Position numbers and translations under genes: made by a program. The notes below the pieces were generated by a model. The model had not been told where the DNA came from and made no database searches. It saw only the letters and a program-made list of their open reading frames with translations. A stretch of DNA of 64,000 nucleotides from Opisthocomus hoazin (Eukaryota > Chordata > Aves > Opisthocomiformes > Opisthocomidae). This document shows, in pieces, positions 57,110 to 62,330 of the stretch. How positions within the stretch are numbered: the stretch's first letter is position 1; the number at the start of each line of letters is the position of its first letter. The stretch covers positions 13,308,417 through 13,372,416 of the forward strand of contig NC_134415.1 of NCBI RefSeq assembly GCF_030867145.1, written 5' to 3'.

Positions 57110-58375
57110 TTTAAACACTGAAGAGAAGCTCATGACAGCCGTATTCACCTTGAAGCCTGTTGGACACCAGTTGACAAACTGGAAGGATCTGTTGGTCTTG
57201 ACGGTAGCAATTGCTATGCTGACGTCTTCAGGAACTACATCGCCACGGCAGAGCATGCCACAGGCCATGTACTTCCCATGCCTTGGGTCACACTTCACCC
57301 TCTGCTTGCTGGGCTCAAAGCGGGAGGCTGGTGATTTCAGCCACCGAGAGCTGCTTGTGATATGCTCTGTCAGGGGACACGATGGGGGTGTAGGTCACTA
57401 AAGTGGATGCGCGGGTAGGGCACCAGGTTTGTCTGGAACTCGGTCAGCTCCACATTGAGCGCACTGTCGAAGTGCAGAGAGGCGGTGATGGAGGAGACAA
57501 TCTGGCTGATGAGGCGGTTGAGGTTAGTGCAAGTGGGACGCTCGATATCCAGGTTTTGGTGGCAGATGTCATAGACAGCCTCATTATCCACCATGAAAGT
57601 GCAGTCCCAATGCTCCAGGGTGTGTGCGTGGTCAGGATGGAACTGTAGGGCTCCACCACAGCACTGGAGAGCTGAGGGGCCGGGGAGATGGCAAACTCCA
57701 GTCTGCACTGGTTTCTGTATTCAGTGGAGAGGCGTCCCATCAGTAAAGAGGTAAAGCCAGAGCCAGTACCCCCACCAAAGCTGTGCAAGATCAGGAATCC
57801 TTGCAGCCCAGAAGAGGCACCAGCCTGAAAGCCAACAGGAAAAGTGAAAGAATAAGTGAACATATCTTTAAATGACACCCTCAGATAGAGACAGCAACAC
57901 CCACACCCAGTGAACAGCTCAAAAGTCAGCAATTTTTCCAGAAAACCCTCATTGTCTGTCTTCCGCTGTAAATCTCAGGGTAGAGTATCAGTAGAGCGAT
58001 ACTGATTTTTTTCTTACAATAATAATGCTATAGCACTATTTCAGGTTTTCCATTTAAGTCTTCCATTGATATGAAAACTAAGATGGGACATTTGGGACCT
58101 GCATTTCTGTGTTCTGAGCCAGTAACAATAGTAAAAGCAAAATGAGAGCCGCTATAAAAAAAAAATATATGTGGTATTTCCCTTCCCACCCTCCTAAGGT
58201 CTTGCTTCTAATTTAACAGTGCACACCATCTTGCGGATACGATCTAATGCCATGCCAATTTTGTCTTTGCCAGTGGTGTAGTGGCCACGTGCATCAATAT
58301 TTGCTGCATCTTCCTTTCCTGTGGTCAGCTGTTCCGGATGGAAAAGCTGCCGGTAGGCACCAGTCCGCACTTCAA
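57110..58375 (-). pseudogene. TUBA8: Alpha-tubulin pseudogene with intron (TUBA8-like)
   Basis: Minus strand. Exon-3-like part 58375-58227: [31 protein letters not shown] and LDRIRK, with a splice acceptor before it. Exon-4-like part from 57824: [19 protein letters not shown] (the GGGTGSG nucleotide-binding loop), then AFMVDNEA-like, [33 protein letters not shown] and [12 protein letters not shown] blocks, ending near 57130 after WCPTGFKV. The frame is broken by a 2-bp loss near 57622 and another indel near 57400, with a third near 57325; the first exons and the C-terminus are absent. Introns with splice acceptors argue against a retrocopy. TUBA8 is inferred from its place after PEX26 on the same strand; the paralogue cannot be proven from these residues. 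Confidence 0.85.
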
Positions 58376-59039
58376 CTGAACAAGAGAGAGAAACAGCGTA
58401 AGCTTGGAAGAGGTAATTCACCAAGGCCGATAACGTCTGCAAAACAAAGGGAGCATTTTATGTTGGCAGAAAATGGTATGGAAGATCTGCATGTTGAAAA
58501 ACAAAGTACAGAGGTGAGGAGTATGATCTGAGATGTTCTCCGTTTCGAAAAAAAAAGAAGTGGACTCTGCTCTAAATGTAAGTTGCTGTGTTATACAAAT
58601 GAATTCATTTACCAGATGAGGGACGTGCCATGCTGTGGTAAAATTTCAGCTCTATATGCTGATCAGATACAGGTCCATCAAGCAACTCCCCGCTTTCCTG
58701 ACAGGACAGCCCTAGAAGGCAATCGCTCTGCCAAGAGGTACTCACTCACCTTGTGGCACTCCAACCTGACTGAGGCAGCGGCTGAGTCTAAGAGAGCTCA
58801 GCCTGCCTCTCAGTCTGTACCTTCTCTCTTGGAAAGAGCCGAGGGTGGAATTTACAGAAAACTGGCTTTTGTGGAGCTACATCTCTCCACATGGATTGCA
58901 ACTGGAAACATTAGAACCAAGCCCAAACAGCAAGTTCCTAGCCACCCAGTTTTGCATCTCCCAAGCACGATACATTTACACAGACCAAATCTATTAAAAG
59001 CAACTCTTCTCTTTAACCATAATGGAATTTTAAAAATTG
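58376..59039 (-). other. Space between PEX26 and tubulin pseudogenes
   Basis: It should contain the tubulin 5' exons and the last PEX26 exon, but neither could be recognised. A 167-codon frame on the plus strand (58583-59086) looks like nothing known and is treated as chance. Confidence 0.35.
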
Positions 59040-61530
59040 GAAATCTTTATAATGCACCCGGGTCTAATCTCACCACCACCAGGTAAAGCAGAAAAGTAGC
59101 CAAGAGCATCTTTTCGTAAGGAAGTAAATAGCAGTGGCTTCACGTGGACCTCAGTGCTCCACGTAGTCATGTCAACACGGTCAAGAGCTTTTGGGACAGA
59201 GCACCTGGAATACAAGAACAGAGGCTGTTAGGGCAAAGGAAAGTAAAAAAAGTAATCCCATGGATACAGATAACACGAAACCAAGATACTAAAGTAAGAC
59301 TGTTCTTAGTTTGATTGCATGAGAGTTGGGTCGGGTGGGTTTTTTTAGAATAAGGAACAGAGAAACATTACCATTTTATAATACAATTCATTACACCTTT
59401 TTTTAGGCAGCTACTTTTTTATATGATCTTCTACCACAGTAGTGCCAGCTTCTCTCCTGGGAGATCATGTCAAGTGATTTACAGTTCTGGAGGAGCAGCA
59501 GTACTTCAAATGCCAGACATGTATTGTTCTGCATGGGCTCGACTGTGAATAGAGACGAAGCAGAGCATACACAGAGCCAAAAAAATGTACCCTTAAAGGA
59601 TTGCTAGGTAGTTTTAGTTTCCCTTTTGCACCTTTGGAAAAAAAAAACAACAAACCACATTTATTGTGAAGTGCTTTTGAACCTGGAAAATAATTACCGT
59701 CTCTTGACGTCTGCAGAGACTAAACACGCTTAGTAATTGTCAGCAAATGGATCACTAAGTTTCTCTGATACGCAACAGGACTTCCTCGTGGCTGGTTTCT
59801 CACGACAATATTCTTAATAAATAGCTAATACTTCCTACCCTTTGTTAGTAAGGGAGCAACTCACTTGAAATAAAACTATAAAAAAGAAGACAAACGCAAA
59901 CAACAGAGGGAAAGCCTACCCAGAAGAGTTTCTGTTGCTCCATCTTGCTGCTCTTCAGCAGCCGAGTGCATCTCTTCCCGTTGAGTCCACCGACATCGGC
60001 TGTCACAAACGGTCCCAAGAAACGCTAGCTGCTGCTGGCTGTCGAAAACATCACAGCCGCGCACAAGCTCTGCTGCCCCCTCAAACCGGCCAAGAGGAAG
60101 CAACACGTGCAACAGACAGAGCTCCAGCAGTGAACCAGACTCGGGGAGGCTCTTACTGGTTTGGTCTCTCAGCCAGCTGCTGCCAACCTCCAGCATCACC
60201 AGGGCCTCTCTCGCTTTGCTGTGTAACAGGATGCTGAAACACAAGAATACCAGAAAACACTAACTCTTTGTAAAAGCTGAGATCACTGACAGTTACTCCC
60301 CACAAACAGCTACATGGAGACATATGTCAGGGTCTGCACCTGAAGCACAGAGAGATTACCGAGGCGCACAACAGGTGCAAGCACTGATGTTACTTTCTCA
60401 ACATCATTCCTTTTCTATTTTACCACCGTAAAGTGATCAGCTGGCCTACGGGCAGGCTCCAGCACTCACAGGTCAAGATCAGGCCTGTCCCAGGTTCCGC
60501 TTTCATCCTCACCTACACCACGCAAAGTCGAAATATCGCTCAATATTCAAGTCTGGCCTGCTGTTACACCTAATGCAAGCCCTGCGTGTATCTGGCAGCC
60601 ACAGATGGAAACTCACCACAGCTCCAGAACTTTCAGAGGCAGATGTTCAAGGACATGTTAACACTGTAGGACCCAAGACAGAACTTCCCTCCACCGGTTC
60701 ATCTCAGCCAGCGCCGGAATCCCCACAACACAAAGGGAGCACTTCTCTTCTGCAGAACTGGTAATGAAGAAACACCTCAAGAAGCGCTTCTCACAACCAC
60801 CTTTCCCTCGCGTCCCTTCCAGGGAGCTGCAGCCTGGCCTAGGCACTCTATGGTTCTCCGGCAGCCGCTTCCCCTCCTTTCCCTCTCCTCGCCCCCCACA
60901 AAAAGGCAAAGCCAACCCCCCGAGAAGATGCGCAGAGTCTGTCTCTCTAGGGGGGCGTGGGAAAGGCTCTGAGCACGCCGCAGAGCCCCGCAGCTCCTTT
61001 CATACCAGGCACATCAATACAGACAGGCCGTTGGCAAACGGCAGCCAAAGCCAAGACAGGTTTTCAACAGCTGCCAACTCGCTTTTTCAGCAAAAAGTGC
61101 CACCTTCCATTCATTTAGCTAACAAAAAGCTAAGAAAACCAAGGCGAGCACCGCGGGTGCTGCTGCCGTTCACACAGATAACAGTTATATTCGAACCTAA
61201 GAGACCCCTAACCCCCCGCCAAAAAATTCCACTTCATTAAACCCCAAAAGCCCTGCATTAGGAACAGCAAAACCCCAAACGGGGCAGAGGCGGCTGCGGT
61301 TCGCAGCCAGCCTGACGCCGAGGCCACCTCCCAGCGCCGCCCCGTCCCGGCTCCGCACGCCCGCTCGCACCTCTCGGGGCCGGTCCCGGGGCCCAGGCTG
61401 TCGCCGCCCGCCTCACGCCTCTCCACAGCGGCGGCCAAGTCCCGGTGCAGCACCAGCAGGTCCGCCGCCTCACCAGCAGCGAGGCCGCATGGGCCGAGGC
61501 CGGGGGCCAGGCCAGCAGCTCGCTCCTCAT
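59040..61530 (-). pseudogene. PEX26: PEX26 pseudogene (peroxisomal biogenesis factor 26)
   Basis: Minus strand, four exon-like blocks. Block 1 (61530-61371) starts MRSEL and continues, one base out of frame from about 61474, with EAADLLVLHRDLAAAVE. Block 2 (60749-60617) has [20 protein letters not shown] and a stop TAA at 60658-60660 where the family has Tyr. Block 3 (60233-59920) is open: ILLHSKAREALVM, SWLRDQ, LHVLLPLGRFEGAAELV. Block 4 (from 59204) carries the C-terminal membrane anchor LLATFLLYLVVVRLDP, preceded by two TGA stops (59167-59169, 59140-59142) at likely Trp codons. Functional PEX26 anchors the PEX1-PEX6 AAA complex to the peroxisome membrane. Introns, splice sites and the CpG-island 5' end show a DNA-level copy. 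It lies upstream of tubulin on the same strand, as in human 22q11. Confidence 0.9.
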
Positions 61531-62330
61531 GGCGGCGGCGGGAGGGCTGCCGGGAGAGCCGCTGCCGCGCGCCCCGCCGCCCGCCCGGCTCCGGCGCCGC
61601 CACGGCCCCCCGCGAGGCCCCGCTCCGCTGCGCTCGGGCAGGCAGCGGCAGCAGCGCGGCCCCGGAGGGCCGTGAGGGACCCCCCTACCCCACCGCCGCC
61701 CGGCAGCGGAAAAGCCCCCGGCCGCCATCTTCTCCCCGCCCCGCGGGCCGGCGGGACGCGTAGTCTCGCGGTGGCGTGAGGGAGTGGGGAGCCGCCGCCG
61801 CCGGGTTCCGCGGGGCCCGTCCCGCCCGCAGGCGGGGCGGCTGCGAGGCGCTGACTCCGTGGGAGGAGTCGTGGGTCCGAGCGGGGTCTCCGGGCGTCCC
61901 CCGGGAAGCTGCTACCGCAGGCGGGGGGGATCACGACGCCTTCAGCCGCGCCGGGACGGGGCTCGGTGCCGGTCCGTGCCAGAACCCCCCTCGGTTTCTC
62001 ACTCGCGCCGAGCCGGCGTCCTCCGATGCGGCTGCCCCCGTTAGGTGGGGTCCCGCTGCGGCCGCTGCCGTTCTCCCCGCGGCCGTCGGGCGTCAGCCCA
62101 GCCCCGCGCGTGTCCCTGCCGAGCGACGGGCCCCGGGGGAGGCCGCTGCGGTCCTGCGGCTTTCTCCAGCGCGGCCGGGCGGCGGAGGAAGGCGGACGGC
62201 AAGGGGCGGCGGCTCCCCCGCTGCCCCAGCAGCGCAGCCTGGCCGGCGGGCTGGTGGATGCCCTCCTCTCCCGGCCTCCTCCTCCTCCGGGGCCTTTTCC
62301 TCAGCCACCCCCGTGCCTGCCGTTTTAAGC
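61200..62330 (-). promoter_or_regulatory. CpG island of the PEX26 copy
   Basis: An abrupt GC- and CpG-rich island of about 1.1 kb covers the PEX26 first exon and its upstream flank. CpG density is still high, which suggests that the duplication is not very old or that the island remains unmethylated in the germ line. The long open frames inside it on both strands are a by-product of its composition. Confidence 0.65.

Follow-up and report, generated by a model that had tools for sequence, protein, structure and literature searches.

The window analysed here is the whole stretch of 64,000 nucleotides from the hoatzin, Opisthocomus hoazin, and corresponds to C2:13308417-13372416, C2 being a contig of 132.8 Mb in an assembly of 1.482 Gb and 415 contigs. 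Position p of the window is C2:13308416+p, and positions above 64000 continue it rightward. Between two exons of a copy of AHCTF1, the window carries an insert (Table 1) whose minus strand holds exons 1-4 of PEX26 and exons 3-4 of TUBA8, with introns and splice sites kept and both genes broken. Its sequence and that of the PEX26 source locus, found on a second contig of 157.5 Mb (C1), lead us to regard it as an old, interchromosomal, non-processed double pseudogene in a duplicated and truncated host. Residue numbers are those of the human proteins.

A Pfam scan of six short pieces with a cut-off of E 0.001 placed the Pex26 family (PF07163) at 60244-59930 and at 60759-60662, and Tubulin_C at 57328-57143 (E 1.7e-18). 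No family was assigned at this cut-off to three of these pieces, two of tubulin and one of AHCTF1. The PEX26 copy contains three stop codons, a TAA at 60660-60658 and two TGA at 59169-59167 and 59142-59140, exactly where they had been placed by a first-pass annotation made by a model from the letters of the sequence. Exon 1 is out of frame at the frameshift which the same annotation had seen near 61474, and its claim of at least two frameshifts in the tubulin is borne out by three in exon 4, near 57625, 57400 and 57330. Its general description, minus-strand PEX26 exons followed by an intron-bearing tubulin, both broken, agrees with the Pfam matches, the splice sites and the lesions. TUBA8 intron 3 is retained with its splice sites, and the presence of introns led us to reject a processed retrocopy. 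The window yielded neither PEX26 exon 5 nor TUBA8 exons 1, 2 and 5.

Table 1. Features of the insert and of its surroundings in window coordinates (borders of PEX26 exons 1-4 were set by eye, those of exon 4 against C1)
Feature	Position	Strand	Remarks
Whole insert, 6302 bp	56905..63206	.	left edge +/- about 3 bases
Left-edge filler, about 12 bases	56905..56916	.	too short to trace
32-bp piece of AHCTF1 exon beginning near residue 1183	56917..56948	+	93.8% to window 53900-53931
52-bp piece of AHCTF1 exon beginning near residue 977	56951..57002	+	
TUBA8 exon 4, three frame changes	57149..57824	-	TUBA8-type residues; Tubulin_C
TUBA8 exon 3, open frame	58227..58375	-	75.5% to human TUBA8; splice sites
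PEX26 exon 4, two stop codons	59058..59204	-	borders by eye, against C1
PEX26 exon 3, open frame	59920..60233	-	Pex26, E 3.5e-22
PEX26 exon 2, one stop codon	60617..60757	-	Pex26, E 5.5e-15
PEX26 exon 1, frameshift near 61474	61371..61530	-	borders by eye
CpG-rich region upstream of PEX26, where alignment to C1 (in pieces) ends	61531..62358	-	
CR1 retrotransposon, 5'-truncated, 3' end at right edge of insert	62392..63206	+	relatives 89-91%
AHCTF1 copy 0, four exons, residues about 977-1180, left of insert	54185..56401	+	
Following AHCTF1 exon, starting at about residue 1181, continuing beyond window end	63963..64000	+	
Extra copy of residue-1183 AHCTF1 exon	53794..53995	+	borders by eye
Inverted extra copy of residue-1183 AHCTF1 exon	49669..49854	-	
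SCCPDH gene, neighbour	34275..44223	+	human query

Searching the assembly turned up five copies of the host intron; four of them (C2:13404276, 13514556, 37548647 and 37561022) are empty, being unbroken at the site. In the window, the intron query breaks at bases 204/245 with 6302 bp between, and the insert substitutes for about 40 bp of the AHCTF1 intron. These 40 bp are retained in the three empty copies that were aligned in sequence, including one that is 9-11% diverged, and for this reason the filled state is the derived one. Because the genome itself supplies four empty copies for reference, a single assembly is enough to read off the edges, the target loss and the sequence in which events took place. 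The left-edge arrangement is unique to the window in a genome search; the 52-bp AHCTF1 piece found there matches C2:37565856-37565908 at 98% (51/52) and the other 23 matches listed at 88-94%. The block had previously been delimited as 57110-62330, and that extent needs to be revised to take in two short AHCTF1 pieces and the CR1; the first reading had also passed over the bridging CR1, the empty sites and what remains of TUBA8 at its source.

In the rest of the genome, the sole match to the PEX26 part lies at C1:148112102-148115576, near 148.11 Mb, where PEX26 is an intact gene with five exons, all open. Three DNA searches tiling 58390-62420 matched the window and C1 only. Window positions 58682-61837 are 83.5% identical to C1 over 3269 columns, and the alignment runs through the PEX26 introns, which differ by a Kimura two-parameter distance (K2P) of 0.103 (140/1473 sites), or 0.083 without CpG; the introns below 60800 alone are 90.5% identical. 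The exons differ by a K2P of 0.089 (61/733) and the CpG-rich part by 0.178 (177/1128), and the ratio of nonsynonymous to synonymous substitution rates (dN/dS) is 0.63 over 192 codons. The divergence of the exons, which almost equals that of the introns, and the dN/dS of 0.63 are what one constrained and one unconstrained copy would give, and the copy in the window has decayed neutrally. The retained introns, the source on C1 and the lesions all support the proposal, already made on first reading, of a DNA-mediated copy from another chromosome followed by decay.

A PEX26-TUBA8 locus had been expected elsewhere in the assembly, and for PEX26 this holds. With a human TUBA8 query, C1:148095001-148125000 yielded TUBA8 exon 5 only, with two stops. 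This dead exon lies at C1:148.0997-148.1002 Mb, and CR1-like sequence replaces its last codons. The TUBA8 exons retained in the window have not turned up at C1, so that the insert preserves parts of a gene of which the home site yielded one dead exon. Genome searches with the window tubulin exons returned nothing besides themselves closer than 77%, and with the C1 exon 5 the tubulins were all at or below 82% among the best 40 of 2118 candidates.

The assignment of the window tubulin to TUBA8 was examined at 21 sites variable among human TUBA8, TUBA1A and TUBA4A, two of which adjoin a frame change. The window tubulin has nine TUBA8-only residues versus two TUBA1A-type and one TUBA4A-type residues that TUBA8 lacks, and on this count another alpha-tubulin was rejected as the source. 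At 15 exon 4 sites the genome's other fetched tubulins have 0-2 TUBA8-only residues, except for the C25 tubulin, which is ambiguous with five TUBA8-only versus seven TUBA1A-type residues. Most fetched alpha-tubulin loci elsewhere carry TUBA1A/4A-type residues, the C4 tubulin being outside that set. An intact TUBA8 parent was not found among the loci examined, which included the ambiguous C25 tubulin but not the one on C4. TUBA8 looks lost at its C1 home site, and perhaps it has been lost from the whole genome.

On the right side, the CR1 bridges the block and the intron. Past its 3' end, the seven relatives read have different bases, and the empty copies are still in intron there; 38 of the 39 other CR1 matches listed (best 40 of 12651, with the query cut at 63206) reach to within 9 bases of the query end. 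At the 5' side of 62392, six of the seven relatives extend as CR1, and the truncated 5' end in the window faces DNA from upstream of PEX26, with about 30 bp between. On C1, no CR1 was seen by eye in about 100 bases past 148115576, and the nearest CR1 match is at 148117355, 1.8 kb on. Classical 5' transduction was rejected because the source lacks a CR1 next to the moved DNA within those bases. The idea of a very young CR1, suggested by an open frame of 253 codons, was dropped as well, since the element lies 6.8% away from the others' consensus, much like its peers at 5.5-7.1%; in neutral simulations with substitutions only, 22% keep an open frame of at least 240 codons. Two further CR1s in the window, at 14644-17707 and 46337-48138, share stretches of 99.3% and 98.7% identity and one has a 704-codon frame, which suggests a recently active CR1 family. 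A published account (PMC8665684) describes CR1 expansion in woodpeckers, hornbills and hoopoes.

The host is a 5'-truncated partial AHCTF1 duplicate within a duplication cluster, and not the gene proper. The exon end at 56401 and the exon start at 63963 are both phase 0, as the first-pass annotation had stated, and its placement of the block inside an AHCTF1 intron stands to the extent that the block lies between these exons, but not as a placement within the true gene. The latter was rejected because exons for residues 1-976 are missing on the left side: a search of the window at E up to 0.1 with a human query gave none of them. To the right lie more AHCTF1 copies, beginning at 82128 and at 124883; identity is 98.5% over 70224-76860 and 98.7% over 76855-82000. 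Copies are also present at least at C2:13.455, 13.471, 13.515 and 37.56 Mb and in a tandem array at 7.36-7.57 Mb, these counts being lower bounds drawn from the best 40 of 8708 candidates, many of them matching CR1 in the query. An N-terminal exon occurs in 13 places, all on C2; nine of these belong to the tandem array, whose period is near 24.9 kb. By contrast, the ELYS domain turned up in only four regions of this genome (0/14 control genomes). AHCTF1 has been amplified heavily at C2:7.357-7.574 Mb and C2:13.36-13.54 Mb, so that the region of this gene for the nucleoporin ELYS is a duplication hot spot in this genome, and its copies are mosaic, with young and old stretches mixed. The copy searches suggest that a minus-strand copy around C2:13.515-13.541 Mb is likely to be the fuller one. 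In annotation, the AHCTF1, PEX26 and TUBA8 copies of the window should not be called intact genes.

The ages of the components were compared by their distances. The CR1 is at 0.072 from the consensus of its seven relatives (0.056 without CpG), and each relative is at 0.057-0.076 from the consensus of the others (0.035-0.058 without CpG). Half the PEX26 intron distance, that is the share of each lineage, is 0.05 (0.042 without CpG), and for the old AHCTF1 pieces next to the insert the total pairwise distance to copy 1 is 0.093-0.118. The ages of the CR1, of PEX26 and of the old AHCTF1 pieces agree roughly with one old event.

Taken as a whole, the explanation that we favour, at somewhat better than an even chance, is a copy from C1 made through CR1 integration and template switching, with later decay and homogenisation of the flanks. 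On the sequence evidence, DNA with PEX26 and at least part of TUBA8 was copied from C1 into the intron of the partial AHCTF1 duplicate on C2, where both genes then decayed unconstrained. The CR1 may have started target-primed integration at the intron, its 3' end joining host DNA, and its truncated 5' end would have been resolved by template switching onto PEX26-TUBA8 DNA and then onto the two short AHCTF1 pieces, before joining to the left flank, some 40 bp of target disappearing in the process. The TUBA8 gene at C1 would have been lost afterwards, and the AHCTF1 flanks may later have become near-identical to other copies through gene conversion or array turnover. It is a more tentative proposition, in which our confidence stays short of even, that one CR1 event in a bird moved about 5.4 kb with pieces of two adjacent genes between chromosomes by template switching at its 5' end, and so saved TUBA8 exons that the lineage later lost. 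The block is a relic, for which we expect no function.

Several observations weigh against the CR1-mediated copy. The TUBA8 part (57003-58681) is without a counterpart on C1: window 57003-58700 gave no convincing match in C1:148095001-148125000, the best having an E of 0.04. Its C1 origin is therefore argued from the order of the genes and from the dead exon 5. The roughly 30 bp between the PEX26 upstream DNA and the CR1 are unaccounted for, and the insert has no target-site duplication, about 40 bp having been deleted instead. Such duplications are common, though not universal, for long interspersed nuclear elements (LINEs). The CR1 distance without CpG exceeds the corresponding half distance of PEX26, and the 52-bp AHCTF1 piece is rather similar to its best match for so old an event (P 0.02-0.06). 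Finally, comparison of the AHCTF1 flanks with copy 1 gives only 21/1729 and 27/995 mismatches (K2P 0.012-0.028), as against 140/1473 in the PEX26 introns. These flanks look far younger than the insert, and gene conversion up to the insert edges must therefore be assumed. Because the AHCTF1 copies are mosaic, such later homogenisation is plausible.

The main rival to the CR1-mediated copy, which we consider rather unlikely but serious, is a recent second move: an old composite of the pseudogenes and the CR1 would have existed elsewhere and been moved or retrotransposed here after the AHCTF1 copies split, its donor being since lost or unassembled. It would account for flanks that are 97-99% identical to the empty copies up to the edges and for the near-identity of the 52-bp piece to the 37.56 Mb copy. 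However, no donor was found in the 1.48-Gb assembly, in which the tiling searches gave the window and C1 only and the left edge is unique; the age of the CR1 is near that of the PEX26 duplication, favouring a single old event, and the mosaic structure of the copies makes homogenised flanks a plausible outcome. Plain break repair, in which end joining patched the block into a double-strand break and the CR1 is a separate insertion at the edge by chance, seems to us improbable. The filler and the short pieces at the left edge would suit end joining also, but two events would have had to hit the same stretch of about 40 bp in an intron of 1.3 kb, for which we estimate a rough chance of about 0.06, and the 3' end of the CR1 coincides exactly with the edge of the insert. 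An assembly chimera, that is a block wrongly joined here, could be imagined in a region so rich in AHCTF1 and CR1 duplicates; it is very improbable given that both edges fall in one intron, separated by about 40 bp as judged from the four empty copies, that a CR1 3' end forms the right edge, and that the block is 16.5% diverged from C1 and hence not misplaced C1 sequence. That the PEX26 copy should still function as a gene, with unusual exons, is scarcely credible, for although exon 3 is open and its region aligns cleanly, and the upstream region is GC-rich, the copy has three stops, a frameshift, no exon 5 that could be found, a dN/dS of 0.63 and exons almost as diverged as its introns (0.089 versus 0.103).

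The insert can be compared with three known kinds of event. Like other interchromosomal, non-processed duplicated pseudogenes, the insert keeps introns and upstream sequence, bears lesions and has an intact PEX26 elsewhere; it differs in holding pieces of two genes and in a source that seems to be without TUBA8. Segmental duplications are usually required to reach at least 1 kb and at least 90% identity. The first-pass annotation had used this term, and it is appropriate insofar as more than 1 kb was copied at the DNA level on another contig, but the copy is old (intron K2P 0.10) and its overall 83.5% is below that threshold. LINE insertions with target-site deletion and captured 5' sequence are known for human L1, and the insert resembles these in the LINE 3' end at the junction, the 5' truncation, the target loss and, on the 5' side, the presence of foreign DNA and of short pieces. 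One report (PMC2912911) mentions 5'-truncated L1 insertions accompanied by target-site deletions. Here, in contrast, the element is a CR1 and not an L1, about 5.4 kb with pieces of two genes was captured, and the age of the event precludes proof. Literature searches on PEX26/TUBA8 in chicken, bird AHCTF1 duplication, avian CR1 or TUBA8 loss gave no account of this insertion.

Further left in the window, 44059-49865 holds remnants of the AHCTF1 unit in inverted orientation, the last SCCPDH exon among them, which match 96848-120720 in pieces at 81-99%. Adjoining the inverted AHCTF1 exon, at about 49900-51700, are frames resembling RNase H and integrase, by eye probably a piece of an endogenous retrovirus. 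An Rfam scan of the window gave zero matches, and the tandem repeats in 44-64 kb amount to two short arrays.

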